From positions 3,410,001-3,474,000 of the forward strand of contig JAQGEQ010000071.1 of assembly GCA_034620365.1 (NCBI GenBank): a stretch of DNA of 64,000 nucleotides, read 5' to 3'. Positions 7,277 to 64,000 of the stretch are shown one piece after another. The stretch comes from Pegea sp. RAD2-039. Its lineage: Eukaryota > Chordata > Thaliacea > Salpida > Salpidae. Each line of letters opens with the position of its first letter. The first letter of the stretch is position 1. Below the pieces are notes generated by a model. The model was not told the origin of the DNA, ran no database searches, and saw nothing but the letters and a program-made list of their open reading frames with translations. Made by a program: the position numbers and the translations under genes.

Positions 7277-10200
7277 TCAAGGTTCAGCACCATTCTTTTC
7301 TAACCAAGACGGTCGGTTTGAAGCAGCCTGGTTGTTGATACTGAATTGTTTGAGAGTAGCTGCCAGTTGCTGTTGATTACCAGCAAAGTAAGCTGTTATT
7401 GCATTGTGAAAAAGTAGTAGTTGTTTTTGCATCACTTTCACCTGTAAATCAGATCAGCTGTATTTGATTGAAAGTAGTGGGATTATCAAAGATAAAAGAT
7501 GATTTAATTATTGATAATTATAAATTATAATTGTGAAAAGTTTTAACAGAAATACTGAATCTCAACTAACTCTGTTTTCATCAAGAAATTGAAGTTTAAC
7601 ACCAACATCTGACCGTAATCTTTCATATATCTGTTTATGTTTGCTGAAATTTAGTTGAGCTTGTGCTTGTCTATTTAAGTTCGATTCTGTACGTGGTGCC
7701 AACTTCAAACTATCTAGTTCAACGCGGTAAGCATCATATTCAACTCTGTAGAAACATAAAAACTCCCGTTACTAATCAATCAAACTCTTCAAGCAATCAG
7801 TGAGAAGTGGGGTACACACCGCGCGTTCTCATAGCGTTTGATGGTCGTCAAAGTATCATCCATCGTCTTACTGCACAAAGTATTCATCCCGCTGACGAAG
7901 AAATTGACAGCAGCTAACAAGTTCTCGCCATTCTTCGATAACACAAATTGTGTTTCACCGTTAAACTGAAATTCTTCCTGAGAATTTAAACAAGTGAAGA
8001 TTAGATTGATGTAAGGATTTTAACATTCCAATCTCAATTGAGATTTGATGCAAGTTGTAAAGGTATATTTATTCTATTTTGTTGTCAGGTCTTTTTACAA
8101 ATATTTCTTTTTTATACTTTTTACAAAAGCAGTTTATGAGGAAGTTTAAGAAACAAACGACGCGAAGAATACATTTATCAAAACACCAGATGATTTTTAA
8201 GGGTTTTAATGAAGCTTATTAGATAAAATACGAGTTTGAATATAAAATAATCTCTTATTCACAAAAAAATTAATAATTTTAAGAAGAATTTTGAACAACT
8301 GAAATGATGATTACTAAAAGATATCATCTGAATGAAAAACTGATATCTAATCGAACAATAAAAAGATTTGAAACATGAAACAGAACAAAAGCTAACTTGA
8401 AGGTCTTGTGATTTGCCAGCAAGCTCTCCAAACGCTTCTCCAAGGACTTTTTGAGTCTGACACATCATCGAAAAATGTTCAGCAAATACTTTCATCAAAG
8501 CAACTATATTCTCATATCTATAAATGTAATAAAGTCTGAAGTCTAGAGACGATCTTTAGATAACTCTACATCAGTTTTCACAGTTTAATTAAAAGTCATT
8601 CACACTCACTTCTGCTTTGTGTCTCTCAAGACCTCAACTCTTGCTTCTAATTCCAAATCAACCGTTCTAGTCCCTCTCCCCATTTTTTCAGAGATCAGTT
8701 GCCGAGTGCACTGAAATGAAATCATCAAATAAGTTGAAGACCGACTCAGTAGAGGTAGTGGGTTTACTCTATAAGCTTTTACACTCCAAAGTTTAAAGTT
8801 TTCTGCCTTGACAGCTGCTACTTGCTGTACTTCTTGTAAAGTCATTTTAGTGGGAGCAGGTTTTGGTACTGTGTTTCCGAAGCCTAAAAGAAATAATGTT
8901 TAGAAGATGAAGGCTGAATTTGGTGGCAATTCACTGCAATTTTCTAATTGAAAATATAAACAAACACATGCTAGTTGACATAAAGTCAATAGACAAGAAA
9001 ATCTTTCGTTAAATCATCAATCAAACGCATTTCGAAATAAAAATCAGTGAAAATGATCTTATGGCTGCAAAAATCTTCTTTTATTTCAGTAATTAACCAA
9101 AGAACTAAGAAGTTATAAAACTTGTCTATCTGCTCATGCCTTAAACAGTTTTAGATACGAACTTGGTAGTAGAGATTGACTTGAATCTAGTTCCGTTTCT
9201 AAACAATATTGACAAAAACAGTTGAAGTCTTTTACAGAGATAAGAAAAGGAATAATTTAGATGGAAAAATCAATCAAATCATTTTTGAATGGAAATTTTA
9301 TCAGAAAATTCTTCATTTTAAATATAATTACTCTTCTAACCATGTTGCTACAGAAATATTCTTGTAAAATTTATTCAAGATATTATCTTTAATTATTCAT
9401 AAATTTTTAAAATTTATATACTTTTGATAGATAAGATTTTAAAGTAAATGATAAAACTATTTTTATCGAAAAAGTTCAGACTACAAATTAGAATAAACAA
9501 ATATTAGCTGAGTTTTAAAACCGAAATTATTAATGTGAAAGCGAGAGGAAATAAACGAATGAATGTAAAGGATGTTGTTGCAGTTCGCTTTAAACAAAAT
9601 CAGCTTTTTTAGTAATAACTAACAAGATGATATTTTGTCCAAATCAAAGTAGTTTATTAAAATCCTTAAAAAAAGTTTCTAAAGATTTTAATTGAAATAA
9701 ATTGAGATTTTTTCGTTAAAAAATACCAAAATTATCTCAGAAAAAGTCACTGAGATGTTTTTTATTTGAATCTGTAACAATGATGCTTTGTGTAAAATAT
9801 AAACATTTGTCTCAAAGTAAACTAAACGAAGCTTAAAGTATTCATTTGAAATTGAATTAGTCATTTATTGAAGGATAAAGACCAAACAAAACAAAAGTTA
9901 AGAGTTTCTACAATAATATGAAATATTCTCGACTTTTATCAACAAATATTCTATGATGCCAGCTACAAGCAGTTCTAAATAAAACCTGTAGGAGTTGCTG
10001 ATCTTTTATAAAATGAGGAATACTCCGCAGAGTTTCTCGAGTCTGAGAACATATTATCAGCCACAAGTTTCAAGAAAAACAAAAATGATTTCTTTAAAAA
10101 GTAGTTTTAATAAATCTAATCAATAATTAGTCGAAGAACCAATTTTCTACACAAAATTTATTTTAAACAAATAAACAGAAAAGTAAGAACAGATGGTTGA

Positions 10201-15840: not shown

Positions 15841-18800
15841 TTAAATGGACACCGGAGTCTCAGAACCTTAAAAAATAAAAGTTATAAATAATACAATAAA
15901 ATTATTTGTTGATTTTGTTGTTCCTTTAAAAATGTCTTACTTCTTTCAAAGCCAACATCTTCCAGTGATGCATTGTAGATAACTTTACTATTAGTAGTTT
16001 TACGATCTAAATTAGGTAAAGCGTAATCCAGCATTTCAAAAAACTTCTGCTGAGTCATCCCTTCTTTGAATTTGATGTTCCGGACGGCCTGAAAAAAATT
16101 CTATCTCAGAAACCATATCAAAACATTTTTTTGGGGTTTTCTATTATATCTACTAACAAAAGTTAAAGTTGGAGACAGTCATATTCTATTTGAGAGTTTG
16201 TAGTTTAATAAATAAATTACCTTAACAGCCTTTTGCAAATCATTTTTAAATTTAATATTCTTGCTAGAATAAAGAGCTTGCTTCGCACCATCACAGCAGA
16301 TGAAAATTATCTTAGTTTTATTTTTCAACATATTCTCCAGTGCCTGATGAAACATATTTGTAAAAGACCAAAACGGTTGATACAGCAATCATGTTTAGTA
16401 ATGAAAATAACTCTTATTAACGTTTAATTCCATTAAAAAAGCAGCTAATAACGACGGTTTGCAACAACTGAACAAGCGACTACAGACTAAACTAGTATTG
16501 CGGAAGGCGCCATAATAACTAGACAACACATTTACATGTGCGGTAAAATAATTTTCTGATATACATTTCAAACATATCACAGTTATTCTAAAACATTCTT
16601 TTTAAAGATGAAACCATTTATATAGACTAATTCATATAAAAACTATTTATTTAGATGAAAATAATTGATAAACTTGCTTGAGAAGTTTCAAATCTTGCTT
16701 TTGCTTCTTTCACATATTCTGTTGTTAGAAGAACTATCATCCGATGTGAACGTTCGAGATTTCTGATGAATGTTTCCACCCAAGCTACACAATCATATAA
16801 ACAAAGTTTTCAGAAATATAAACAAGCAGCTATAATAGAATTAAATGAAGATACAAAAAGCACTTTAAGAGAAGTTCCATTAATTAGATACTAAGTTAAA
16901 CCAGTTCAAAATCAATTTTAGAGACTTATTTAAACTTAAGACTTCTTTGTTGGTAAAATATAAATGTTGAACGACTAAAAATCAAACTACTAACGTCCTA
17001 ACTCCATGTGTTGATGTTCATCATAATAAGAATATTGTTTCTTATCAAGCAAACATTTTATCCATTTAACTACTTTAGCAGTTGTTTGAAACGACTTTTG
17101 ATGAGTTGGAACAACATACGATATCATTGCTACATATTCTTTGTTATCTGAAATAATAGATGACATTAAACAGTTTTATTATGTGAATTTAAAATCAAAC
17201 TTGTTAAATAACATTTCTTGTCAAGATAGAATCAACAACTATTTTGATGTAAACAGAAAGGTACAAGTTAAATTGATTCATTACTTATCAATCTATAAAT
17301 ACTCAATAAAACTGACCATCATCATATTTTCCCATATGTCTTCGAATAAATAATTTAATTTGGATGTGAAATTGCCAATAAACTAAAACTAAGGTAACTC
17401 CAAGTAAAATAAAACTCAAACAAACAGACAAAGCAATAGCTAGAATAGCTAGCTCATAACTGTGATTGTATTCAAGTAAAATGGTTTGAACAGTTGAAGA
17501 TTTTCCGTAGTGATGTAGTTGAACATAGATTACACCAGCATCACTTTTGTGCAAATTTCTGTGAATAATCAGCCGATGAATATTTATAAGAACAGTTTAT
17601 AGAGTCTTACTTTAGAGAAAGGATAATTTCTGGTGTCAGAAAGGGTGATTGCTCTTCAAGCTCTGCCACTGACGGTACATGATAAAAACAAACTTTTGGA
17701 ATACTTTTAGATCTTTTCCTGATTACAAAATAATGTTTTAAACTTATTGTTATCTTTCGTTTTTAATTATCTTGAAGAGTAAAGAAAATTTGTTATTTTT
17801 TTCCACAAAAAAATAATCATTGACATTTTAAAAGTTCAGAAAATGTTTTAAAATACAAGATGTACAAAGAAAATATTCTCACATTCTACATCTCACATCC
17901 TCATCTTTTGCAAATAAAACTGTTGATTGGTGATTTTTACAAAGAGTTTCATTGCTATCATCATTCAAATTTTTCTGCATTCAATTTAATTACTTTTTTA
18001 CAAATTATTTTATGTAAAATTCATGAAAAATTTCTAACTTTTGAATTAAGTATTTTAAAATACAAATGAAACTAAAAGATGATAATAAGTTTAAAAATTA
18101 AATAGTTTTTGTTCATAACCTTTCAATAAGATTTAAACTAACTTTGAACCAGGTAACATTGATTTGATTTTCATTAATTAAAGAGCTGTCTATTTGAGCC
18201 GTACAAGCAATATTGATATTAGATCCAGCGCTAAAAGTGATATTTTTGTTGCATATTATTGTAGGTTTAATTCGATCTGAAGATTCTGTAAATTGTAAGC
18301 AAAATTATAACACTAAAATCCAACTAATAAAAGTTAATTAAAATTAAAAAAATTCTAATTAAAAAAAATTATAATTGCTAAATAACAAATTTTGAAGAGT
18401 ATTATACCTTAAGTAATATTAAACATTTTGTTATGGTAAATGTATTAAACTATTAAAATAATATTATATAATTTCTTTTTAGTACTGAAAATACACGTTT
18501 CCGTAGTGTAGCGGTTATCACGTTCGCCTAACACGCGAAAGGTCCCCGGTTCGAGCCCGGGCGGAAACAATTTTTTTCTAAAAGTCTTCTAGCAAAGGCG
18601 AACAAGATACAAAAGAAATAGGTCCTTGCTTTTTGCCGTTTACGCAGCAATTGTTGCACATTCAGCAAAAAGACTACAGATGTTGTTGGACGGATTTTCT
18701 TTAGCTTATAGGGATTTTGGAATTAAAATCAGTCAAAAAAGATAAAAGCTCTTAGCCAAGGTGTTAACGTCCTATCAACATCGATGGCTGTGACGCTAGG

Positions 18801-41800: not shown

Positions 41801-43232
41801 AATTTGTATGTGGAGAAAGAGGTAAACTTATTTCAATAAATCGAAGATTGATGTTAATATTGAATAATTATCATTAAAAACTTATAAATTCAAAGCTAGA
41901 TATTCTGTTAAATATAACTTACACCCTATTGTCTACATTAAGTTTTTTACTCAAAATCTTTCAAAATCTGTAAAAACAAACTACTTTTTTTGGCTAAGCC
42001 TTGTACGCCAAAGCAGCAGATAGAATAACATTTATGCTTCCTTCCTGCTTATACAAGGGAGTGTATTATAGAAGAATATAGCGCGTGTTGATCAAGTTTT
42101 CAGTGACGTAATCCAGTGAGCTGATAAATTATTACTTTTTATGATTTATAAATAAATGAATACTAGTTCACAAACTACTGATATAATAAGAACGACTTCA
42201 ATAGATCTAATTAATGTTGATAGTTGAAGAAGATGTTTCAATGACCATTGAATTTAACTTTCTCCTCAATAATCAAACAAATTTTCAATTTACTGAAGAT
42301 GCTTTTTGATAGAATTTACAGAAAACCAGAACTTTTCATCAATAAGCCGCTCCCTTTTTTCGTTGCTTTTTTTCTTTTTTGGAAAATTCTATATAAGCTG
42401 TGTTGTAATGAATGTAGAGGAGAGCAATAAAAGTAGTGGCTTGTAGAGATCAGTCATCATCATGCTACTTGCCGATTGCTTCAAACTCTTTTATATGTGA
42501 TTAAGACTTAGATGATTTTTTGCTGATATTGACACTTTGTCAATGATTTTAAACTGATTGTAAACAATTTTTCGTTTTTTTAATGATTTTTATAAATAAA
42601 TTTTCATATGCTATCTTAAATAGTAAAATGCTGGTCACTAGAGTTGTTCAAATGTTCTATTTGGTCAATTTATTTAGTTGTTAAGTGTATGCTAACATTT
42701 ACAATCGAATTTATCAAGTAAAAAGATTTCTATATTTCACTTGCTTAGAAAAACTTTAAAAACTTTTTCATTACAATTTTATTTTGAAATATAGAAATGC
42801 TTTTAGTTTTTTATTTCTTATTTTGAACCTAAAAGCAGAATTTAGATTAAATTTTTGATTGTAGAAAGTTAAAAAGTATATTTAGAAAGGGAGTAGTCCT
42901 CTGTAGTCTACTAAAATCTTATAAATAAATATTTAATCTGAGTAAATTTTAATTATGCTTTCATGCACATTCAGAATTGTATGAAATGTCAAATCGCCAA
43001 TTTTGAGTGCCAATTAAATTTCTATGTTTATAATCTGCTAATTACTGTGTATGTATCTTACCACTACCAGTTGGTTTTAACTTATTGTTTATTTCTTTCG
43101 GCGATCTTTAAATTACTGGAAGAATACAACAACAATTGTTTAATCTTATTTTGAATTTTACATTATTATATCTGTAAATCTTATCTTATATTTTTTTAGT
43201 TTCTTCAGACTTGTTAATTCCTTCTAAATAAG
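35801..43232. other. Gene-poor AT-rich stretch
   Basis: Over 7 kb without a gene I can support. Two short coding-like islands were noticed. Minus strand 38510-38450 reads YLGEELGRYAVEQLVPKGQ then stop. Plus strand 39470-39545 reads KTWEEIKGCVYDIT, faintly like a cytochrome b5 fold. Neither has partner exons. The right end should hold the promoter of the intermediate filament gene; a TGACGTAA site lies at 42104. Confidence 0.5.
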
Positions 43233-46200
43233 ATGGCTCAAAGAAAATCAGCTTATCACCGTGACTACACCGTCCAAACTAGTACTACTAGTTACTCTTT
43301 TGATGGGTAAGTGCAATCACCAACCTATACTTTTAAGAGAATTAATAATTAGTTAGAAATAATTAACCTTAAGGCTGTTTTAGTACTTCAGTTAACGTAA
43401 AACAAAGTTACACTGCAGTCAATACGACATTGACTAGAAAACTATAACTATGTTATATCTTTGGCTTTCTATATTTTTGACTAAATAGATGTTATTTGTG
43501 AGAATGTTTGTTAGCGAGAGGTGCTCTCTATAGGTACCCTCCTTCGCATTCATTGTAATAAATAAATAAATAATGTTGTTTTAAAAAAAACTTGTTATCT
43601 AAACAAGATTTCACAAAAATCAAAAGACTGAATACAATGATAAAATTAACGATAAACTTTCGAAACAAATATTATTTTTATTTTATATAAAAGCATTAAG
43701 ATCACTTTTTTTATAAATTAATGTTTATTATTTGTTAACTTTTTAGAAGCGTTAAAACGATGAAAGAAAAGGAAAAGGAACAACTGAAAACATTGAACAA
43801 TAGTTTAGTTAACTATATTGACAAAGTACATGACTTAGAAATGATGATTAAACGATTGTCTGCTGAAAATTTCAAGTTGAGAAAGAGTAGTAAGACCAAG
43901 GTACAAGTTGATGTGAGCTCACTTTTTGAAGTGGAATTAAAGGTGAATTTTTCATAGATTATTTTGGTTCACTAAATTAATTAAAATTGAAACTTTTTTA
44001 TAACAGAGGTTAAGATTACGAGTTCAAGAACTAGAAGCACAAAATGTGGAAATTTCAATTAAGCTTGAAAATAAAGGATATGAATTTGAAGAAAATATTT
44101 CAAAGTATGATCATTTACTATAAATATGCTTTTACAACTAAAATATTTACTGCTAGACGCTTTAACGAACCTGATTTCCATTTTTTTGCAAACTCTAATG
44201 TTTGAATATATGCTGAAATAGTAGAGAGTCAATATTAGAAAAATTTTGTGATTTCTCAAAGTCTCTGAGTTTAAATTTAGAAATATTCTAAAACTTATTA
44301 AACTATCCGAAAAAGTATTTGATTTTTCAATTTAAATTATCCAGCAATGTAACCAACAAAATCAAAAATTTAAATACTGTTAGAGGCAGCATAATTAATA
44401 ATAAATTTTACAAATAATTATTTTGGTAATCTCAACAGCTAAATCAGGAATTAATTTTATGTCGAATTAATTTATAAATCTAAAAGACGATAAATTGCTT
44501 TTCAGATCTACAGAAACTATAACAAAACTTGCTAACTATGAGCGAGAAGTTATTGGTCTTAGAAAGGTAAGGAAATTATCAACAAGTTGTACAAATTCGT
44601 CGCAACAAATTTACTAATTACCTTGTTTTATGTTATTAGTAGGTCTCTTAATGAAAAGACGATTTATAAATTTTGTTCTGAAACGTAATTAGTCTATAAA
44701 ATAATCAATGTAACAATGTTGGTTAATTTTTCTTAAATATATTTTTAATTCAACAAATTTTTAACTAAATACGAACAAATCTAGGATGTTGATGATGCCA
44801 CTATTGACCGGGCAAAAATGGAAGGAAGAATTGAATCTTTGGTTGAGCAGCTTGCCCTTGAAAGGAAGGTTCACGAAGCTGTGAGTTGAAATATGCCACT
44901 GAGCCTCGTCGACAATTAATCAACTTTTTGATACTTTGAATTTAAGGAGCTTCAAAATCTCCAAGCACAAATCGTTCCTGTTGATACTCAAGTACAATTC
45001 ACGGAAGTTGAACAATCCCGATTCGTTCTTACTGATTTAACTGAAGCTATTGCTAACATTCGAAAAGAATATGAGGCCTTCAATGCTAAATCACTTGAAG
45101 ATCTTGATAGATTCTACAAAGAAAAGGTAAAAGTTGTAAAATGGATACTGTAAAATATTTTTGCTTCAAATGAACAGATCATAAAATATTTCGAAATTTA
45201 AGTTGACATTTAATCGGTTTTTTAAGAAAATATTTTGAGATAACTTTCAAAATGAACGATTATGGCTTTTAGGTTGAGAGCCTGAACAAGCAATTAAAAA
45301 CATTGCAAATTGAAATCCGTGATGTAAAAATAGACAACACTGAAAAACGAAGACGTGTTCATACTCTTGAATTGGAATTGGAAACCATTCGCCAAAAGGT
45401 TTTTAGTTGTTTCAATTCACGGTTAATTGAGCGAAACCCAAACTAAAAATGTCAAATTGCTATTCAATATCATTTTCAAGAAAAACATTTCATTTCAATT
45501 AAACTCAAAGCTGAAAAATGTAGAAGTAACATTGAAGCTAATGTATCAAAATTTGTAGAAAATTACTTTGGAGAAAACCATTGTGGCTTTGGAGGCAAGA
45601 ATTGCTGAATTGGAGAGCAGTAAAGATGCTCAGTTGGTTGAAATGCGAGCTCAACTTCTCAACACTAAACAAGTTAGCTTGGAAACTTAAATAATTTTTA
45701 TATTTTAAGATTTAAACTCAAAATTGTTTCTTGTATTTTCAGGATCTTGGCAAGTATCTGAGACAATATCAAGAGTTGAATGCTCTTAAGTTGAGTTTAG
45801 ATCAAGAGATCTCAATCTATAGAAAATTGATAACTGGCGAAGAAGTCCGGTATGATATATCGATATATTTTCAGTCGAGTTATTTATTATTTATTGAGTT
45901 GATTTAAAAATAAAGAATTTATTTCAAATCAATCTAAAATTTTCATATTATACCTCAGGATCTCAGAGGTTGACACAAGTTTTCAACAAATCAGAAGCAG
46001 AAGTAGCTCAAGCTCTAGCTCAAGCTCAAGCTCCAGATCTGCTTCAATTGAACGTAGCCAAATATCTGTCACAAAGAAAAGGCAACCACAAATTGTTGAA
46101 GAGATGATGCAGACTACTACTACAACTACAACTGAAACTTCAAATGTCGTGATGAAAGGTGGCCAAGTCCAGGGAAGTCAAGTCCAAACAACTATTAAAT

Positions 46201-49200
46201 CTCAATCAACTCCAAAAGGAAAAGGTGGAAAAGGAGTGAAGCAAACTGATGTAAGTGATTTTTATACCTAAGCTGCTGTTGTGGTTTTTCAACTGATTTT
46301 TCTTAAAACTGAAGTGCTGCTTTGCTAGTGATTGAAATTTTATTTGTTTCAACTTGTAATAAGCTTAACTAACATTGATGAGGCTGTTGGAAATCGCTGC
46401 AATTATTTTTACTTTTCAAAGTTGTATCTTTAATCTCACACAAATTAGTTTATTATATTAATACTTTAACAAGTTTTATAAATCGAAATAACCATGAAAT
46501 GGGATGTAATAATTTGACTTGAATAAGATAAACAACATCGATTCATCAAATCTCATTGTATAACAGGCTTGAAGTTTAATCAGGGAGCGATCAAAGCTTA
46601 CAAGCTGATCTTCAACGGGCTTTTAATCATTTAAATCACTATATATGTAATCAAAAATATAATCACAAATGTAATAAATGAATTTTTATAATATTTTTCT
46701 TTAACCTATAAATTCTAACCCTACCTGGTAAAATGCCTTTTAATTTTCTCATATAATTTGCCTATATACAATTTCTTGATGTATGTATGTAAATCTTATA
46801 GCAAGCTCGCAAATAAAACAAGCTGTTTAAAGATCTTTTGTTGTCACTTTTCAAAAGCTTTATTTGTTAACATTTTACAAACAGTTAGCAAACAAAAGTT
46901 TTTTTAGGGTTAAATTCAGGTACAGTTAAAGGTAAATATTCTTTTTAAGTTTACTTTTTTTCTTCAACAAAGTCTTTTGCAAAATTTTTCTTTTTCATAT
47001 CGGGCGGCAAAGAAAGCCAAATTAGTTTTTATTTACTTTAACTATAATAAAGTGTTGTACTAAATATTTGTTCAGGAAGTTATATCGGTTAGTTGGAAAA
47101 TTAAGGGTGGTACAGTCAGAACAAAGACCCCTTTTGATCCTGATGAAGATGCTGAAGCTTTACATAAGGCCATGAAGGGACTTGGTGAGATATTAAACTA
47201 CTATCAATAAGTTTTAAGTTAACACATCAGCTACAATTACATTATACTTTTAGCTCCATTGTAACTAAATTATTTAAAAAATGTTTAAGATTAGATATAC
47301 AGTTGTTGAAAAATAACGTGATATTTTTTAGCTTTTTTTCATTCTTATGAATCAAGAATATTTCATTTCTTTTTAAGCAGAAAGAATAAAAAATCTTCCA
47401 AAATTCAGTATTTTTCTTAAAAATATTTTTCAAGCATTTCTTTTACAAAATATTTGATAAAATTTTTCTCATTACAAATATAGGAACAGATGAAGATACT
47501 ATCATTGCTATTCTAACCAAGCGAACTAAAGTTCAACGAAACAAAATTGAGGAAAGATACCTTGCTAAATACAAAAAGGTATTTCGTCATTATTGTAATG
47601 AAATAAGAGAAAACATTTTTTAAAGCATTCTTTCATTAATTTTCTATCGTGAAAAAATTATGGAAAACTACTTTTAAACATCTATTTACATATACTATAT
47701 CTGTTTATTCAAATGGCAATAAAATACACTCTTGTATATCATCAAAACGTCAAAAAACAATTCATTTTAATTTTTTATTTTTCTCAGGATCTTTTGAAAG
47801 ATTTGGAGGGTGAATTGAGTGGCAATCTGTTAACAACTGTCCAACATTTGATGTGGAAAAAGAGCGTTTTGGACGCCCAAGCTCTAAGAAAAGCCATCAA
47901 AGGATTTGGAACTGATGAAGCAGTCTTAATTGAGATTTTATGCACTCAATCAAGCCTAGAGATTAACGATATTAAAAAGGATTATCAAACATGTGAGTAG
48001 ATATAGCTTTGAAATATTTAGTGTTGATAATTTTGTTTGATTTTTTAGTGTTCAAGCGTGATCTTGTGAACGACGTAAAAAATGATACATCGAGTGGATT
48101 CAGAGATTTTCTTGTTAATATCTTAAAGGGCTTGAGACACCCTGATAATGGAACAGTTGTTGCTGAAGAAGCAGAAGCTGATGCAAAAGTAATTTGATCT
48201 GAAATCATTCATTTACAGCAAACTGAACAATTTATGTTTCAGCAACTTTTCGCCATTCAAGTGAAAAACTGGAATCCCAGCAACCCGACATTCTTGAAAA
48301 TATTTACTCAGCGAAGTTATCAGCACCTGTGGTATCTGTTTAAAGAATGCTGGCCCAAGCATTCTAAAGAAAATTTGATTGAGACAATTGATAAGCAATG
48401 CAAGAGTGATCTACGCCGTGGTCTTCGAACTATTGGTAAGAATAAATTTATTAGAAGCTATTAAACTGAACATAAGTATTCCATAATCAAGTTGCTGAAT
48501 AAACAATATTTTATTTAATTTTTTACAAGTCTAAACGCACAAAGAACTCTTAATAAAAACGCTGTGTTTGTTTTTCAGTTCGATTTTCTACTTTGGTTCC
48601 ACCTAAGTATTATGCTTTCCAAGCATATGATGCACTGTCTGTAAGTTAAATAATTTTGTATAGAATTTTTTTCATACGTGTATCCTTTTTGAGCATTTGT
48701 TTACATTTTGAGCTGATGACGTTTGTTAAACTTCATGCTCTATTAACTATCTAGATCAATGACAAAGTCTCTTATTTGTTCTTTTTTATGAATAATGTTT
48801 ATTAATCATTTTTAATTCATATTTTATTCATTCTTTTATCTATAAACAACTCCTTCTATATCTATAATATTGATAAATTTGTCTTTAATTTAAACTTTGT
48901 AACCAAAGTATACAATCAAAATATACTTTTTATAGACTAAAGGAGTTGAAGATAAACAACTTATCTATATACTGACTCTAAGAAGTGAAGTTGATTTGAT
49001 TGATGTCAAGGAAGAATACGAAAGAACTTTCAATAAGAGTTTACTGAAGCATCTAGAGGTACAAAACATTAAGTTGCTTTATAAAAATATTCTAAAACAT
49101 TTTAGAAAATCATTTTGTCCTAATCATACTTTTTTAACCACACATGACAATGTTATCTTATGTAGGATGCTACAAAAGGAAAGTATCAGAAAATTCTCTT

Positions 49201-49216
49201 ATCCTTGTGCAAATAA
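43233..49216 (+). CDS. Intermediate filament-annexin fusion protein (copy 1)
   Basis: Exons: 43233-43306, 43747-43942, 44007-44104, 44506-44566, 44785-44880, 44947-45126, 45273-45398, 45559-45672, 45743-45849, 45959-46250, microexon 46920-46931, 47076-47184, 47484-47578, 47788-47992, 48049-48188, 48243-48435, 48579-48640, 48936-49058, 49166-49216; 2334 nt, 777 residues. Residues 1-30 are a head. Residues 30-351 are an intermediate filament rod with the helix-initiation ([16 protein letters not shown]) and termination ([18 protein letters not shown]) motifs and a short coil 1B. Then come a Ser-rich tail and a Gly/Lys linker without lamin-tail domain. From about 465 there are four annexin repeats. 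Repeats 1 and 2 have type-II Ca2+ loops (KGLGTDE, KGFGTDE); repeat 3 (KNWNPSN) and 4 (TKGVEDK) have lost them. The annexin part has no ATG of its own before the first repeat. Every junction keeps phase. A filament-only isoform is possible. Fusion needs RNA proof. Confidence 0.75.
45959..46250 (+). other. Ser-rich filament tail exon
   Basis: Exon 10 of the fusion gene encodes the end of the rod and the whole tail. Hexamer repeats of AGCTCA type make a run of ten serines after [11 protein letters not shown] and a [10 protein letters not shown] block follow, then [12 protein letters not shown]. It ends in phase 0, which allows either the annexin exons or the short terminal exon at 46567 to follow. 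Confidence 0.75.
46567..46817 (+). other. Alternative last exon and poly(A) signal for a filament-only form
   Basis: After the acceptor ATAACAG (ends 46566) the sequence reads GCT TGA in phase with exon 10, adding one Ala and a stop. AATAAA at 46812-46817 could end the transcript before the annexin exons. The same site, stop and AATAAA (as TTTATT, minus strand) are kept in the inverted copy near 63305-63050. Confidence 0.4.
46920..46931 (+). other. 12-nt microexon joining filament and annexin parts
   Basis: Bounded by AAATTCAG and GTAAAT, it encodes V-Q-L-K in phase 0. It is unchanged in the inverted copy (62950-62939). Skipping it keeps the frame. Confidence 0.45.
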
Positions 49217-49640
49217 GCTCGTTTTAAACGTTCGGAGTTTTGAAGTATTAATGGAGCTTAGCTATAAGATGAAGTTTCAGACATACATCAATATATATAT
49301 AGCCTTGTATACTCTCTTATGTATCCCACTGTATATATTTTCATATAAGTGCTTTCCTGGATTTCGATCGCTGGCATCTAGCCCTATATTCATTTACGGT
49401 TCAAAAATCAGATTGTGGTCGTGTTTAATCACCTTCCAGAGCTTACAAAAACCTAAATTATGTTTGTAACCGGATTAAACCGGGTCTCTGGGTTTCAAGT
49501 AATTTCCTAGCCGTTAGAGGAATATATATTTTTCCTTTAAAATTATTTTTAAAAAAGATTTTATTTTAAGTATTTCCTATATACTAAATGTACCAGTTTT
49601 GAAATAAGTTTTGAAATGTATTCGGAAGCAATAAAAGAAA
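49217..49640 (+). other. 3' UTR of the fusion gene
   Basis: Follows the annexin stop; poly(A) signal AATAAA at 49630-49635. Around 49488-49535 it contains a roughly 50-bp sequence that is repeated at 58768-58812 in the spacer and in the other arm (60335-60385). Confidence 0.55.
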
Positions 49641-51240
49641 TTATCTAATGTTGTTTGTTATAATTTTATTTTAACGTTCACTGCTAACCACTGTGGTTAA
49701 ACTTCACCTTTAATTCTAAAACCTGCCAAGTTTTAATCAACTATCTTTTCAAAAGTATTCATGCCTGAAAATTTCAGACCTTGTAATGCTTATGAGTTAC
49801 AAAAGGATTTCATGGACGAATAACTTTGCACAAAACATTTTCAAACAATTGTGCAATAGTAGCTCAATAATATTTATCTTATACAGCCTCAAAAAACAAC
49901 CTTTCCTCACATTAATATAAAACTGTATTAAAATTGTATTATCTACAAATGTATCATACCAGCGAATTGTATAAGATCTAAAAAGTCTCTTTGCTTGATT
50001 TATGTGCTTGGTAAATACACATTAGCTCTCATACACTCGCAGCACAATGAATTTATATTAGAAATTTAGTAATTCAAACACATTTAAACTTTAAAATAAA
50101 AATATTGATGATAAAAAATTTATCTTCAACGGTTACGAAGAAATAAATCTGTATAAATAGCACTACAGCATAGAATTAAAATTTTAAAAAATAGACTATA
50201 GCTAATTAAAATTTAATTATATCAATGATTAAACCTTGAATTAAACCTACATAATATTTTCACTAAGTTAGCAATTTACCTTTTTATTCATAGTAGGATT
50301 GGCTGATTTTTTTGTAAACAAGTATTTATTTAAACTTGTTACGGTAAAAGTCGTTAAGTTAAATCTAAGTATTCAATGAAATAGTATCATTCAACAGCTT
50401 TTGTGTCCTATAAACTGGTCTTTTGGCTTTAATTACTATCTTAGCTGCTGATGAACTGAATATAACGCTTTCAAAATTGTTGTATTTTTGTTTGAGTTTT
50501 ACATGTAAACAAAATATATCATTTTATGTCAATAACAATTAAAGTAACAATAAAAAATTTCAACCAAAGTTTTTCTATTTGCATAAAAAGTTACAAACAA
50601 TAAACTATTGATTCAATAAAATGTTTTCCAAACTAAGTATGCAGAATTGACTGAGTTACAAAATTACTGATACAGTTATGAGTACGGTTTCCAAAATAAA
50701 TTTAAAGAGCTTAATCATCCTTCTACAAGAGATTAAAACCTAAAAGTTTAAATTTTGGTGACAATTTTGGTAAGCTATAATTTAGGTTTTAATAGTTAAG
50801 CTAAAAATGCGATAAAAGCCGCATTGATTTCCTTTTGATAATATAAATGTCTGAAAACTTATAGTTTGCTCTAGAAGAAAATATTTCAAGGTAGAATGGT
50901 TTTGAGCGAAACAACTTTACATTATTGCAGCACTTGAAGTAAAAGATTTTTAAGATGTTTTGTTACTAAATCAACAATTAAGTATTAACTGCTAAAAAAG
51001 TAGTTGAAGAATAAAATAATTCCTTTTACAATTTATCTAATTAATTTATAATAATCTCTGATTGCATTTTATTAATGGAGACAATTTTTTATCTTAGTAC
51101 CATAAACAATTTGCTTTATTGCCTTACGATAATATTCAATCTATATCTTTTATAATAAGCTAATTGCTGGTAGCAAGGTTAAGTTTTATCTTATATTAGG
51201 CATAAACTTTAAATATAATTTTCTTTTTAATGTAAACACT
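49641..51240. other. Arm flank beyond the annexin exons
   Basis: AT-rich and non-coding as far as I can see; contains the 265-bp segment missing from the right arm. No gene. Confidence 0.6.
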
Positions 51241-53199
51241 GATAAAAATATTGAATTTAGCTCACATCGGTTAAACTCTGAGCAAAACTTGAAATAATAC
51301 TAAAGAGCTTAGTTTGAAAAATAAATTGTTTTGATTGTAAGTTTATTCATACTCATATGCGTTACCTCTATGAGTTTGTATTAAACACATTTATAAAAAC
51401 TACAATTTTCATATAACCTATAAGTCTATTCTTATTATGAAAGCTATTAAAATAATGAAATTAAACAATTTAAGTCATAGATTCTTTTTTCAGTCATAAC
51501 GTTTAAAGAAATAGCTCACACAGCTTCTTGAGTAAACTCTCTTTGAAATTTTTCCTACTCTTTCGATTACAAATAATGGAAAGCGTTGAACATATACGCA
51601 TTATTTTGTTTAAATTATATTCAACTACATTTAAAACTAGAATTCAATTAATCTTTGAAATTGTTAATTTGATCTTTTTCCTAATATCTACAATTAGTTT
51701 AGATTCACTAAATGTAAGAGCTCTCAACTACTCCAAAATTCAAAGCGATTTTGTGAGTAATAAAATTCATGTATTAGTTTTTGGAATTGATTTAGGCTGT
51801 GAGAGCAGACAGCTTGAAACCAGTCTTAGTATTCTTTATACGTTTAAAAAAGCTTTTACTATTCAAACAAAAGCAATAAAAAGTTCATTTTTTTCACATT
51901 ACAAAACTATTTGTTGATTTTATGATTAATACTGTTTCTTTATTTGTTCGATTGACTGTTTCTTTAAATTCCTACATTTTTCTTACAATATGTTGTATAA
52001 AGCTAATACATATGCTTTTAAATAAACTTAAATTTTGTGTAAAAATATTTTAGATGTTTTAGAAAGAAACGACTTTTAGGTGAAAGGGTATGAATGTTAT
52101 ACTTGGAAGCAATCTGTTATTAATTAAGCATATTGTTTATTAAATTAATACAGAAATTGTGCAAATATTGTTAGATAGAAAAGTTGATCTTCTATTCTGT
52201 ATAAATTTATTATTATGACTGAATTTTAAAAAAATTCAAAAAAACTGAAAAAATAACCGCAAAATTATATTAAATTTTATTATTATTTTTTGTCTTTTGA
52301 AACTAAATTTAATGTTGACTGATTGACATGAATTGTTTAGAAATTTAATAAAACTTGTTATCGCTAGAATATGTTTAAGTCGTTTAATTTTAAGTTAACA
52401 TTTTAAATCTGAAAATTTTGTTAAATGACAATAAACGTCTGAATACTTCCCAGCAATTGTTGTGTTTGCTTTCATAAACCCTGGTATTAACTTGTTACTT
52501 TGTTAGTTTAACTTAAATAGAAAACTATTTACAAATAGCAATAAGCTAAAATAAGCATGAATCTCTATTCTATAATCCTTATTTTCATATAAATTTCTTT
52601 TTAGAAAAAATTCAAGCTAATATAACTTTGATCAAATATTTTCTGCCAAGGGTCGATACCCTCTCTTCAAATCGCTGATTTTGCATTATATCATGTTTTT
52701 ACTATTTACTTTGTAACATCTGTGTTTTATCTATATAATAAAAATTAATTATTATTAATTCTATAAGTTTCTGAGGTTACCATTAATATTTATTAACAGC
52801 TTAAAAATAATCTCAAAAGATGTTTTACTACGTTGATCAAGTCATAAATACCATTTATGACACATAAAGATGTAAGGTTACTTTTCTGATGAGTAAAAAA
52901 CTTCATTAGAAATTATAGGATGATTTCTATAAAAAACTTGTGAGATGAATGAATGATTTAAGCTAGATTTATGAAATTTAGAATAAAATCACATTTAAAA
53001 TCAACTTTTTGAGTGAACAAAGATGGGCGTTATATGCTTAGCAACTCAATTATACACGCTTGAGTTAACTTTCAAGTCTGTTCAGAGAAAGAGCCATTCA
53101 GAGAATATCTTGGCTTGATATTTCTCTATTTGATAAATGTTTTTCAATCTATTATATTCATTATCTTGTTCTAAAATCTATTTTTGTTAAACAAAAACC

Positions 53200-53429
53200 G
53201 TCTGAACAAAATTTTCCCAAAAACTTACAATTTGTTGAAAGAATCATATTATTAATATAAAACTTTAGAGGTTATATGTTTACTTGCAGATAACTTTTCA
53301 TATAAACCTGTACGGTCTGAACAAAACTTTCCCAAAAACTTACAATTTGTTGAAAGAATCATATTACTAATATAAAAATTTAGAGGTTATATGTTTACTT
53401 GCAGATAACTTTTCATATAAACCTGTACG
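53200..53429. repeat. Tandem duplication, two 115-bp units
   Basis: Units 53200-53314 and 53315-53429 differ at only a few positions, starting at GTCTGAACAAAA and ending at CCTGTACG. No coding content. Confidence 0.92.
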
Positions 53430-56400
53430 GTAATACATTGTTTGGAAAATAAATTATTTAAGCTTTTTGTTTGTTAGCTTAAACTAGAAATAAAATAAAT
53501 TATGTCGGTAGTTTTACGAGTATTTATCAAAAACTTCTCTTTTGCTAACGGTTTTTATCACTGGAAGTTTTCATATTTGAAATGTTTCATGAAATTTTGT
53601 TGAATGAGAATCATTTCATGAAGTGAAGAGTCCATAAGAGTCATCGACATCTCAATCAATCTTTTTATTATGCGTCTGCAGCATTATATTCTTAATAACT
53701 GACACATTTCAGATTGAAAGCTTTATGCGATTTTAAGATTCAGTTATTTGGTAAAATAAACAACTGTATCTTCATGAATGCCAACTAAAGACACAAATGT
53801 GAAGTTGTTTAGAGTCAATAAAGAAGAACAATCCAACAAAGCTAAAAAGCAGAACGATAAGATTTCAACAAACTGTAGACTTGAGAGTTTTATTAAGTTG
53901 GCTCGGTCTCATGTATCATGATGATTATTTCAGAAACAAATTTTCTATTTAATATTTTTCTAAATTAGGTTATTCTAAAATAACTGTAATTCATTGATGC
54001 GTAAATTTTAGAAAAGATTTTTGAGCTAAATCCGAGATAATAAATTGATCTGGTGATTCAGTTGTTCCATAGAATTTATGGAAAAAATATTGAAATAAAA
54101 ACTCTAAAAAGAATTCTAATTTAACAAAAAAGTTTTAGTTCTTGAAATCTCATATTTAAGAAAATCTATGGTTATAATTTGCAAGCTCATTTTATATACT
54201 TTTTAGAGTTTAACGTGTTCAGTACCTCCTTAATGTAATACAACTCATAGTTAAGCTTTGTCTGAATTGTTTGCCAAGTGTAGTACAAAGACTTAAACAT
54301 TAAATTTTTAATAATTCTTTTAAGCCAATTTTGCAGAGACCATTTGCTTCAATAATTTTGAATGATATTGTGAAGGATAATTTGAATTCGAGTAAGAAGT
54401 ATGAAAAATATTTTAGCAGAATCAAAATTCCTTTTTAAACAGATATTTGAACTCAAAATGTAAATATTTAAACTTAAATGATTAATATTTTTATGATATT
54501 AAGCTTTTTATAACTGAATGACGCAATTTTAGAAAATATACATCATTTTTATGAGCAAACCCACAACAAAAATTTTAATTAACTTTTATTATCAATTGCT
54601 CAAAACTGTTTTTTGAAAAATGTTTAAGAATTATCTGAAAACTGATAAATAATTTTAAAATTGAATTTATATTTTATTAAATCTATAAGATATACAATTT
54701 TGTCAACTCTGCATCTGTAATTATCCAAATGTGTTAGTTAACAAAAATTATAAAATGATTTTTTGATTTATAAACAAATTCCAAAGAATATTTCAAATCA
54801 TTACAACAATTTTGATGTAAACTTTTCTGAATTAAGTCATTTTATAAGAAATAAAAAATAAACTTTTTGTGCAAACACTTAATATGAATGAAGGCATTAA
54901 ATAAGTTAGCTTGTGAAAATATTTTTATGTAATTGAATATGTTCCTATTAAATTATTTATTATATACAATCTTCATTCCCAAAAATAATTTGAAAATTTA
55001 TCAAATGGCTTACTAGCATCTATAATTATATAAAATAAATTTATCTCCTGAATATATAAGATATCATAAATAGATTTCGATAAAATATTATGTTTTCGTT
55101 AAACAAGTTTGTGAATAACAATTAAAAAGATATGAAAATATCCCAAAACATCAAATTCAATATTAGTGAAAATTTTTAGAATATTTGTTTAAATATTAAA
55201 CCGAAAACTCAAACCTTCGCACAGAAAACATAAAAAAGCTAATTGCAAATTCGATAAGCTATTCCAATAAATTAACCATCCAAATTTCTTAGACAATAAG
55301 ACTAAGCCACAAATATGATATTAATATATGAATCATAGGCTAAGTATTTTAAAAGGTTTTAAGAAACCCGTTTCTGGAAGCATTTTCCTCAATAATAATG
55401 TTTATTCTCCTCAACAAACCCAAACCTGAAACAATTCAAACTTTTGAAGGTGGAGTCCTGTTCATTTAACAACTTGTATTTAATATATTTGCTTATTCAA
55501 TGATTATGACGACAAAAATGAAAAAGTCATTCAAAGTTTGAGCAGATCTCATAGTTTAAACCAGAAATTGGTTTTTAATATAGTAATTAAAATATATTTT
55601 GCTTATTTTATTTTCATAAACTATTATTGATTAATGGAGTATTTTAGACTATTAATTTAAAATTAATTGTGTCTATATAATGTTCATTAGGACGTTTTTT
55701 ATCAAATAAAATAATTTCCTTATTTTCAGATCTTAGAATAATAGCACCAAAGAAGTTTTCCAAACTAACTTTATATCAACATCTGACGGAATTTTTATCA
55801 ATTCATTCAAATATAAACTAAACTCATTCAGAACAAGACACACGAAGTGATTTTTCAGTTATAATTGTCAACCAAATTTCTTCATGAAAAACTCTTCAGG
55901 ATCTGATACAAGAGCGCCAACAAAAAACAAGAACTTTCCGTATAAATCTTATGAAGTCTTACTTTTGATCACATTATTCACATTTCGGATTGCAAAAGTT
56001 TCTAGTTTATTAGTGTCAAAAGGCTAATTCAGAATTATTAAAATAAATTAAAAAAGTTTCAGTTTAGATTTCTTTATACAATTGTTCAAATCTTTATTTT
56101 TGCCAAAGGGATATAGCACAGAAAAATCTATCAAAACTTATTATTATTTTATTTTGAGCATATTATCATCATATATAGAGGTTAGAAGAAGTTCTTCAAT
56201 CATCAAGAAAAAAACTTGCTTGTATTACAAGATAAATTTTATTATTTAAGTTATTCAAAATTTTGATTAAATTTAATTAATTTAAATATTTTAGTTATTC
56301 AAAAATACAGAATAGAGTTTCCAATTAGTACAAAATAGCATTTGTAAGAGTCACACTCTAATTTGATTCTATTTCAACGAGATCATTTTGAACGTTTTCT

Positions 56401-58560: not shown

Positions 58561-58880
58561 AAATTATCGTTAAATCATTGTAAGAATAACTCATTATTAA
58601 TTATTCATTTTCAGTTAGAAGATGAGGTATAGGTGTTTATCTTGTTAAGTTAGCTCTATAGATGAATTAAACTGAACTTGAAAAGTGATATCAAAATGGT
58701 CGCAGATGGAAGAAAAGATAGAATTAACTGATCAGATGAGAAGTCCATTCTAAGTTTTAAAGGAAAAATATTCACTCCTCCAACAGCTGTGAAATTACTT
58801 GAAACCCAGATTTTTAGGCAGGAATACTTTTGAAAAAGTAGTTGATTTAGTAGCTGTGAGCTTAATTCATTATTTATATA
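58561..58880. other. Spacer next to the right arm
   Basis: Contains the roughly 50-bp sequence shared with the annexin 3' UTRs (58768-58812) and a copy of GTCCATTCTAAGTTTT, also at 57533. Possibly further LINE sequence. No gene. Confidence 0.45.
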
Positions 58881-61800
58881 AGTGTTTACATTAAAAAGAA
58901 AATTATATTTAAAGTTTGTGCCTAATATAAGATAAAACTTAACCTTGCTACCAACAATTAGCTTATTATAAAAGATATAGATTGAATATTATCGTAAGGC
59001 AATAAAGCAAATTGTTTATGGTACTAAAATAAGAAAATTGTCTCCATTAATAAAATGCAATCAGAGATTATTATAAATTAATTAGATAAATTGTAAAAGG
59101 AATTATTTTATTCTTCAACTACTTTTTTAGCAGTTAATACTTAAATGTTGATTTAGTAACAAAACATCTTAAAAATCTTTTACTTCAAGTGCTGCAATAC
59201 TGTAAAGTTGTTTTGCTCAAAACCATTCTACCTTGAAATATTTTCTTCTAGAGCAAACTATAAGTTTTCAGACATTTATATTATCAAAAGGAAATCAATG
59301 CGGGTTTTATCGCATTTTTAGCTTAACTATTAAAACCTAAATTATAGCTTACCAAATTTGTCACCAAAATTTAAACTTTTAGGTTTTAATCTCTTGTAGA
59401 AGGATGATTAAGCTCTTTAAATTTATTTTGGAAACCGTACTCATAACTGTATCAGTAATTTTGTAACTCAGTCAATTCTGCATACTTAGTTTGGAAAACA
59501 TTTTATTGAATCAATAGTTTATTGTTTGTAACTTTTTATGTAAATAGAAAAACTTTGGTTGAAATTTTTTATTGTTACTTTAATTGTTATTGAAATAAAA
59601 TGATATATTTTGTTTACATGTAAAACTCAAACGAAAATACAACAATTTTGAAAGCGTTATATTCAATTCATCAGCAGCTAAGATAGTAATTAAAGCCAAA
59701 AGACCAGTTTATAGGACACAAAAGCTGTTGAATGATACTATTTCATTGAATACTTAGATTTAACTTAACGACTTTTACCGTAACAAGTTTAAATAAATAC
59801 TTGTTTACAAAAAAATCAGCCAATCCTACTATGAATAAAAAGGTAAATTGCTAACTTAGTGAAAATATTATGTAGGTTTAATTCAAGGTTTAATCATTGA
59901 TATAATTAAATTTTAATTAGCTATAGTCTATTTTTCTAAATTTTAATTCTATGCTGTAGTGCTATTTATACAGATTTATTTCTTCGTAACCGTTAAAGAT
60001 AAAGTTTTTATCATCAATATTTTTATTTTAAAGTTTAAATGTGTTTGAATTACTTAATTTCTAATATAAATTCATTGTGCTGCGAGTGTATGAGAGCTAA
60101 TGTGTGTTTACCAAGCTAGTTTAGTTTAGTTGATCAAAACTTGGCAGGTTTTTGGAATTAAAGGTGAACTTTAACCACAGTGGTTAGCAGTGAACGTTAA
60201 AATAAAATTATAACAAATAACATTAGATAATTTCTTTTATTGCTTCCAAGTATATTTCGAAACTTATTTCAAAACTGGTACATATAGTATATAGGAAATA
60301 CTTAAACTAAAATGTTTTTTAAAAATAATTTTAAAGGAAAAATATATATTCCTCTAACGGCTAGGAAATTACTTGAAACCCAGAGACCCGGTTTAATCTG
60401 GTTACAAACATAATTTAGGTTTTTGTAAGCTCTGGAAGGTGGTTAAACACGACCACAATCTGATTTTTGAACCGTAAATGAATATAGGGCTAGATGCCAG
60501 CGATCGAAATCCAGAAAAGCACTTATATGAAAATATATACAGTGGGATACATAAGAGAGTATACAAGGCTATATATATATTGATGTATGTCTGAAACTTC
60601 ATCTTATAGCTAAGCTCCATTAATACTTCAAAACTCCGAACGTTTAAAACGAGCTTATTTGCACAAGGATAAGAGAATTTTCTGATACTTTCCTTTTGTA
60701 GCATCCTACATAAGATAACATTGTCATGTGTGGTTAAAAAAGTATGATTAGGACAACATGATTCTCTAAAATGTTTTAGAATATTTTTATAAAGCAACTT
60801 AATGTTTTGTACCTCTAGATGCTTCAGTAAACTCTTATTGAAAGTTCTTTCGTATTCTTCCTTGACATCAATCAAATCAACTTCACTTCTTAGAGTCAGT
60901 ATATAGATAAGTTGTTTATCTTCAACTCCATTAGTCTATAAGAAGTATATTTTGATTGTATACTTTGGTTACAAAGTTTAAATTAAAGACAAATTTATCA
61001 ATATTATAGATATAGAAGGAGTTGTTTATAGATAAAAGAATGAATAAAATATGAATTAAAAAGGATTAATAAACATTTTTCATAAAAAAGAACAAATAAG
61101 AGACTTTGTCATTGATCTAGATAGTTAATAGAGCATGAAGTTTATCAAACGTCATCAGCTCAAAATGTAACCAAATGCTCAAAAAGGATACACGTGTGAA
61201 AAAAAATTCTATACAAAATTATTTAACTTACAGACAGTGCATCATATGCTTGGAAAGCATAATACTTAGGTGGAACCAAAGTAGAAAATCGAACTGAAAA
61301 ACAAACACAGCGTTTTTATTAAGAGTTCTTTGTGCGTTCAGACTTGTTAAAAATTAAATAAAATATTGTTCATTCAGCAACTTGATTATGGAATACTTAT
61401 GTTCAGTTTAATAGCTTCTAATAAATTTATTCTTACCAATAGTTCGAAGACCACGGTGTAGATCACTCTTGCATTGCTTATCAATTGTCTCAATCAAATT
61501 TTCTTTAGAATGCTTGGGCCAGCATTCTTTAAACAGATACCACAGGTGCTGATAACTTCGCTGAGTAAATATTTTCAAGAATGTCGGGTTGCTGGGATTC
61601 CAGTTTTTCACTTGAATGGCGAAAAGTTGCTGAAACATAAATTGTTCAGTTTGCTGTAAATGAATGATTTCAGATCAAATTACTTTTGCATCAGCTTCTG
61701 CTTCTTCAGCAACAACTGTTCCATTATCAGGGTGTCTCAAGCCCTTTAAGATATTAACAAGAAAATCTCTGAATCCACTCGATGTATCATTTTTTACGTC

Positions 61801-64000
61801 GTTCACAAGATCACGCTTGAACACTAAAAAATCAAACAAAATTATCAACACTAAATATTTCAAAGCTATATCTACTCACATGTTTGATAATCCTTTTTAA
61901 TATCGTTAATCTCTAGGCTTGATTGAGTGCATAAAATCTCAATTAAGACTGCTTCATCAGTTCCAAATCCTTTGATGGCTTTTCTTAGAGCTTGGGCGTC
62001 CAAAACGCTCTTTTTCCACATCAAATGTTGGACAGTTGTTAACAAATTGCCACTCAATTCACCCTCCAAATCTTTCAAAAGATCCTGAGAAAAATAAAAA
62101 ATTAAAATAAATTGTTTTTTGACGTTTTGATGATATACAAGAGTGTATTTTATTGCCATTTGAATAAACAGATATAGTATATGTAAATAGATGTTTAAAA
62201 GTAGTTTTCCATAATTTTTTCACGATAGAAAATTAATGAAAGAATGCTTTAAAAAATGTTTTCTCTTATTTCATTACAATAATGACGAAATACCTTTTTG
62301 TATTTAGCAAGGTATCTTTCCTCAATTTTGTTTCGTTGAACTTTAGTTCGCTTGGTTAGAATAGCAATGATGGTATCTTCATCTGTTCCTATATTTGTAA
62401 TGAGAAAAATTTTATCAAATATTTTGTAAAAGAAATGCTTGAAAAATATTTTTAAGAAAAATACTGAATTTTGGAAGATTTTTATTCTTTCTGCTTAAAA
62501 AGAAATGAAATATTCTTGATTGATAAGAATGACAAAAGCTAAAAATTATCACGCTATTTTTAAACAACTGTATATCTATTCTTAAACATTTTTTAAATAA
62601 TTTAGTTACAATGGAGCTAAAAGTATAATGTAATTGTAGCTGATGTGTTAACTTAAAACTTATTGATAGTAGTTTAATATCTCACCAAGTCCCTTCATGG
62701 CCTTATGTAAAGCTTCAGCATCTTCATCAGGATCAAAATGGGTCTTTGTTCTGACTGTACCACCCTTAATTTTCCAACTAACCGATATAACTTCCTGAAC
62801 AAATATTTAGTACAACACTTTATTATAGTTAAAGTAAATAAAAACTAATTTGGCTTTCTTTGCCGCCCGATATGAAAAAGAAAAATTTTGCAAAAGACTT
62901 TGTTGAAGAAAAAAAGTAAACTTAAAAAGAATATTTACCTTTAACTGTACCTGAATTTAACCCTAAAAAAACTTTTGTTTGCTAACTGTTTGTAAAATGT
63001 TAACAAATAAAGCTTTTGAAAAGTGACAACAAAAGATCTTTAAACAGCTTGTTTTATTTGCGAGCTTGCTATAAGATTTACATACATACATCAAGAAATT
63101 GTATATAGGCAAATTATATGAGAAAGTTAAAAGGCATTTTACCAGGTAGGGTTAGAATTTAAAAGTTAAAGAAAAATATTATAAAAATTCATTTATTACA
63201 TTTGTGATTATATTTTTGATTACATATATAGTGATTTAAATGATTAAAAGACCGTTGAAGATCAGCTTGTAAGCTTTGATCGCTCCCTGATTAAACTTCA
63301 AGCCTGTTATACAATGAGATTTGATGAATCGATGTTGTTTATCTTATTCAAGTCAAATTATTACATCCCATTTCATGGTTATTTCGATTTATAAAACTTG
63401 TTAAAGTATTAATATAATAAACTAATTTGTGTGAGATTAAAGATACAACTTTGAAAAGTAAAAATAATTGCAGCGATTTCCAACAGCCTCATCAATGTTA
63501 GTTAAGCTTATTACAAGTTGAAACAAATAAAAATTCAATCACTAGCAAAGCAGCACTTCAGTTTTAAGAAAAATCAGTTGAAAAACCACAACAGCAGCTT
63601 AGGTATAAAAATCACTTACATCAGTTTGCTTCACTCCTTTTCCACCTTTTCCTTTTGGAGTTGATTGAGATTTAATAGTTGTTTGGACTTGACTTCCCTG
63701 GACTTGGCCACCTTTCATCACGACATTTGAAGTTTCAGTTGTAGTTGTAGTAGTAGTCTGCATCATCTCTTCAACAATTTGTGGTCGGCTTTTCTTTGTG
63801 ACAGATATTTGGCTACGTTCAATTGAAGCAGATCTGGAGCTTGAGCTTGAGCTAGAGCTTGAGCTACTTCTGCTTCTGATTTGTTGAAATCTTGTGTCAA
63901 CCTCTGAGATCCTGAGGTGTAATATGAAATTTTTAGATTAATTTGAAATAAATTCTTTATTTTTAAATCAATTCAATAAATAATAAATAACTCGACTGAA
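58881..64000 (-). repeat. Right arm of the inverted duplication
   Basis: Reverse-oriented copy of 45870-51240, cut by the window end, so the true arm is longer. Exon lengths are all conserved. Compared with the left arm it lacks about 265 bp near 60118. Confidence 0.93.
60655..63911 (-). CDS. Intermediate filament tail-annexin, inverted copy 2 (5' part outside window)
   Basis: Exons in transcript order: 63911-63620 (filament tail), 62950-62939 (microexon), 62794-62686, 62388-62294, 62084-61880, 61823-61684, 61629-61437, 61293-61232, 60935-60813, 60705-60655. All exon lengths equal copy 1 and the frame is open to the same stop. I see five residue changes: RQ to SR in the tail, P to H before annexin repeat 1, R to H in repeat 3 and K to N in repeat 4. 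Poly(A) signal at 60241-60236 (minus). The rod exons should lie beyond 64000 if this copy is complete. The intact frame suggests a functional or very young copy. Confidence 0.75.

Follow-up and report, generated by a model that had tools for sequence, protein, structure and literature searches.

A predicted intermediate filament–annexin fusion gene, of a kind named in Ciona, and its inverted duplicate in another tunicate genome

Among described proteins, the closest to the product of the locus analysed here comes from Ciona intestinalis, for which a fusion of an intermediate filament (IF) protein to an annexin is named in the title of a 2004 paper in Gene by Karabinos, Zimek and Weber, a title cited in turn in PMC3542361, PMC5603733, and PMC3942430. 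By that title, the likeness is one of kind, both being tunicate fusions of a cytoplasmic IF protein with an annexin. The original prediction for this locus knew of no described example and proposed a new type of cytoskeletal protein, a claim overturned by the Ciona fusion reported in 2004, as the cited title has it. At the level of sequence, the fusion described herein is real and its kind is already known; what this analysis adds is the fusion in one more tunicate, whose genome is A+T-rich, together with a recent inverted duplication and a case against the objection from spliced leaders. With the Ciona side compared by its title alone, the differences are that the fusion gene is duplicated here and that it belongs to a different, A+T-rich genome.

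The other relatives resemble the fusion in one of its halves. Vimentin and the keratins likewise have an IF rod without a long insert in coil 1B, where an extra length of 42 residues is the mark of lamins and protostome IFs, and they have no membrane domain, whereas the protein analysed here carries an annexin after its tail. Annexin A6 and the other four-repeat annexins have the four-repeat core in common with the fusion, whereas the latter has a filament rod N-terminal to that core and the calcium motif in two of its four repeats. Our preferred reading, held jointly at a probability of roughly 0.88, is that the locus is an IF–annexin fusion gene and is most probably orthologous to the one in Ciona (whose protein we take to be that named IF-F), that its transcript would be cis-spliced into one mRNA encoding a calcium-gated tether, and that it was probably duplicated recently.

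The window, that is, the whole stretch of 64 kb that was analysed, carries on its + strand (43233–49216) a single open frame of 773 amino acids built from 18 exons, the borders of which were placed by hand. The filament half (43233–46250, aa 1–448) encodes a head, a short rod of about 316 aa, and a tail, and comprises exons 1–5 (43233–43306, 43747–43942, 44007–44104, 44506–44566, 44785–44880) and exons 6–10 (44947–45126, 45273–45398, 45559–45672, 45743–45849, 45959–46250). The annexin half (47076–49216, aa 449–773) encodes four repeats and comprises exons 11–14 (47076–47184, 47484–47578, 47788–47992, 48049–48188) and exons 15–18 (48243–48435, 48579–48640, 48936–49058, and 49166–49216, the last including the stop). 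All 17 introns are of the GT–AG type. The junction intron between the two halves (46251–47075, + strand) spans 825 bp in phase 0, reads GTAAGT...TTGTTCAG, and is longer than any other intron in this copy of the gene, hereafter copy A. The original prediction had ten filament exons ending in phase 0 and in-phase annexin exons following them, which agrees with the 10 + 8 exons in one frame found here, and its gene start and end (43233 and 49216) were exact to the base; its product size of about 87 kDa was near, though computation gives 88.9 kDa and a pI of 8.9. Elsewhere in the window, a tRNA-Val (anticodon AAC) lies on the + strand at 18497–18569.

The filament half matched the Pfam Filament model completely (positions 1–313 of 313, at aa 33–351; E 6.5e-55), and the rod carries both conserved IF motifs, the rod end reading YRKLITGEE in copy A. 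A PDB search with this half matched 25 distinct sequences, among which vimentin was the best match and the sole near-full-length chain; query positions 26–399 (374 aa) aligned to vimentin 95–457 (363 aa) at E 2.1e-39, with no long insert. Compared with vimentin, in a set from which a full-length lamin was absent, coil 1B of the fusion rod is without the 42-residue extra length. A complete rod with its start and end motifs and no extra length in coil 1B fits a cytoplasmic IF protein of the chordate type. Between the rod and the annexin, at about aa 352–458, the protein is rich in Ser, Thr, and Lys.

The annexin half matched Pfam Annexin (PF00191) in four stretches (E 4.1e-67), and in the PDB search the four-repeat annexin core was matched over its whole length (aa 457–772). 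Annexin A6 ranked first among the best 60 of 101 matches, followed by A2, A5, A4, A1, and others. The type II calcium motif of annexins consists of GxGT and, about 40 positions later, an acidic residue. Repeat 1 keeps it with E and repeat 2 with D, in both cases 40 positions past the last glycine of GxGT; the same motif was looked for in repeats 3 and 4 and found to be absent there, which counts against the preferred reading. Two such calcium sites should permit Ca2+-dependent lipid binding by annexins, and IF rods should assemble into filaments. Because of these general properties of the two families, the most likely role of the product would be to attach filaments to acidic membranes in a Ca2+-dependent manner, via repeats 1 and 2. 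Specifically, we infer that the primary transcript would be cis-spliced through all 18 exons into one mRNA and one protein, that the rod would, like others of its family, form 10-nm filaments alone or by co-assembly, and that the annexin tail would, again by family resemblance, bind acidic phospholipid through repeats 1 and 2 when Ca2+ rises; calcium-gated tethering of filaments to membranes would then follow. The fusion offers a way to test whether a filament of the cytoskeleton can come with a Ca2+-dependent membrane anchor of its own. Moreover, its presence in another tunicate genome would speak for the IF–annexin protein of Ciona being conserved and functional rather than the oddity of one species.

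Read from genomic DNA, the frame, the splice sites, and the domains fit an IF rod followed by a four-repeat annexin, as expected of a fusion of the Ciona type, and they predict that the annexin is fused to the filament rod in one gene. To score the splice sites, we built models of donors and acceptors from the 17 introns of the gene itself, holding out each site when it was scored. On this thin training set of only 17 sites, the junction donor GAT|GTAAGT scored 7.96 bits, the top of the 17 donors (next 7.79), and the junction acceptor, at 6.62, was sixth of 17. Read unspliced past 46250, the frame continues with VSDFYT and then meets a stop (46271). This stop could mark the end of a filament gene, in which case there would be two genes, with a separate annexin mRNA starting in the 825-bp interval, from its own promoter or by trans-splicing, and a short ATG exon (e.g., 46779–46784) spliced to 47076. 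The interval does contain six ATG-to-GT candidate first exons of fitting phase, the best of which by donor score (6.57) encodes just Met-Tyr. Two genes would, however, leave the top-scoring donor of the gene unused, six codons before the stop, a place where GTAAGT is unlikely to stand by chance because the whole + strand of the 64-kb window has only 15 copies of it, including those at donors of the fusion gene. Nor does the AATAAA at 46812 provide evidence of an end of the filament gene, since the three occurrences of this signal in the interval are close to the approximately 2.8 expected from the 216 that the window carries on its + strand.

The absence of an ATG ahead of the first annexin repeat, as originally predicted, was borne out: there is no in-frame ATG between 47076 and repeat 1, and the first one, at 47172, lies inside that repeat. 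As a control, we examined the first-repeat region in four of the five other annexin loci (L016 was left out), using open frames that may include intron bases; an ATG precedes the repeat in L011, L014, and L015, and the open frame of L013 has none. Because L013 shows none either, the missing ATG is, by itself, weak evidence for the fusion.

Spliced-leader units, which a separate annexin mRNA could draw upon, do exist in this genome. The 16-nt leader ATTCTATTTGAATAAG, given in exactly this form for Ciona according to PMC7986045, had 681 genome matches at ≤1 mismatch versus 29 for the reversed pattern, with places listed for at least 100 of the 681. On C4, leader units repeat about every 199 bp, and four of four units in 700 bases are followed by GTAAGT (L048, C4:1135000–1136500), as are both of the two units on C11 (L049, C11:16500–17200); the units in these two tandem arrays, of about 199 bp, carry the exact Ciona leader followed by GTAAGTG. 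A search for the leader, GTAAG, and the Ciona Sm site AGCTTTGG within 20 bases returned no match genome-wide, so the body of the leader RNA differs from that of Ciona, while exon and donor agree. Additionally, Rfam gave only two sub-threshold matches on the leader array, both to unrelated families, and the bdelloid leader had no genome match at ≤3 mismatches. A start codon supplied by a spliced leader had been named at the outset as one route by which the fusion could be refuted; the leader is present in the genome but contains no ATG, and its joining to 47076 creates none. Satou et al. (PMC2760879) describe Ciona operon genes as often wrongly modelled as fused, which would favour two genes here as well, but most operon genes in Ciona, as characterized in PMC7986045 and PMC2760879, abut without intercistronic DNA, whereas 825 bp separate exon 10 from exon 11 at this locus. 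Given also that an IF–annexin fusion is published for Ciona, going by its title, we consider the existence of two genes very improbable and retain the single, cis-spliced fusion gene as the likelier reading.

Alternatively, the locus might yield two products: splicing at 46250 would give the fusion, whereas retention of the junction intron would give an isoform of the filament alone, with six extra residues before the stop. The short in-frame end reached by reading through the donor would suit such an isoform, but in A+T-rich DNA any retained intron soon meets a stop. The length of the junction intron and its similarity between the two copies of the gene (5 differences in 825 positions versus 34 in 2386 in the other introns) also speak for it, but five differences are too few for claiming constraint. 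Intron 1 (43307–43746) was excluded from this comparison of rates because its alignment with copy B is poor, with 129 differences in 440 positions, 152 extra bases in copy B, and a repeat-like translation. On balance, a second, filament-only product appears unlikely, and we keep to the fusion protein as the probable sole product of the gene.

The fusion gene lies within an inverted, tail-to-tail duplication with arms of approximately 9 kb, the first at 42354–51266 on the + strand and the second at about 58855–67658 on the − strand, which are 97.9–98.3% identical in three main blocks. The part of copy B within the window covers 58855–64000 (− strand), and its arm extends past the window end; the original prediction made no mention of this copy. 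Gene B runs on the − strand from 66780 down to about 60655 and has an open frame of 773 aa with 20 amino-acid differences; both copies keep the 773-codon frame and the junction splice sites. GT was seen at 16 of the 17 donors of copy B, and at the donor of intron 6, where the alignment gap sits, the translation QRKGKMDTV fits AAG|GTAAAA. A recent inverted duplication would have left two genes with open frames in this arrangement. Pieces of a segment beside the arms (52605–55087) recur at 94–97% identity at 3477656–3487214 on C1, the contig with both copies, and one short match was found beyond it (C121, 89%); because the segment recurs nearby, it points to recent local amplification around the arms. 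An assembly error, for example a second haplotype joined in reverse, would reduce the pair to a single gene, and identity of about 98% could also be seen between two alleles of an ascidian. Both copies, however, lie on a single contig in a tail-to-tail arrangement, and the neighbouring segment recurs several times locally, though misassembly could yield that too. We regard such an error as improbable and treat the copies as two genes produced by duplication.

Copies A and B differ in 28 codons, with 23 of these falling within the 1344 bases that encode the filament half and 5 within the 977 bases of the annexin half. Because 20 of these differences replace the amino acid and 8 are silent, there appears to have been no strong constraint since the duplication, a point against the preferred reading. 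The rod-end motif is altered in copy B, from LITGEE to LITVEE, and because the new form departs from the usual one, copy B may be losing filament function. The tail-to-tail duplicate offers a natural way of testing which of the halves is constrained. A bolder proposal would have the built-in calcium-gated anchor stable in ascidians and present in two forms, a tethered fusion and a filament-only product of intron retention, with the duplicates dividing roles and copy B dropping filament function while keeping its annexin; we judge this combination to be distinctly unlikely.

Finally, we searched the genome with Pfam models, exon by exon, such that the locus counts are lower bounds. Filament exons are present on at least C1 (two copies), C8, C21, C29, and C44. 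Annexin exons were located on at least C1 (two copies), C6, C8, C15, C49, and C265. In this exon-wise search the two occur together only on C1, in the two copies, and the filament and annexin exons on C8 are about 267 kb apart. No relatives of the fusion protein were found in viral_contigs. The lamin tail domain had no match in the genome at E 1e-3 in the exon-wise search, which could miss it, and the Ciona lamin is reportedly also without this domain. Lamin-like exons, as yet unjoined, were seen on the − strand of C29 (L039, C29:1054000–1063999) together with RARAKRKRKR, which resembles a nuclear signal. An open frame beside them ends in CIIM, a CaaX motif, and presumably belongs to the same lamin-like gene. 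The rotifer lamins examined in PMC10125929 are described there as having no CaaX motif. A+T richness and a size of about 105.7 Mb had suggested a monogonont rotifer as the source of the genome, and with it an idea concerning the rotifer intracytoplasmic lamina; this reading was rejected in view of the CaaX end, the absence of the bdelloid leader, and the abundance of the tunicate one. The Ciona leader, the rod with no long coil-1B insert, and the CaaX end near the lamin-like exons together mark the genome as that of a tunicate, most likely an ascidian, with the missing Sm site as the point against. Another annexin gene lies on C8 (L011, C8:888000–897999, at about 7515–8337 of that stretch), preceded by an open frame in which YAPQPG repeats abound. 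We take this frame to resemble the N-terminus of annexins A7 and A11.
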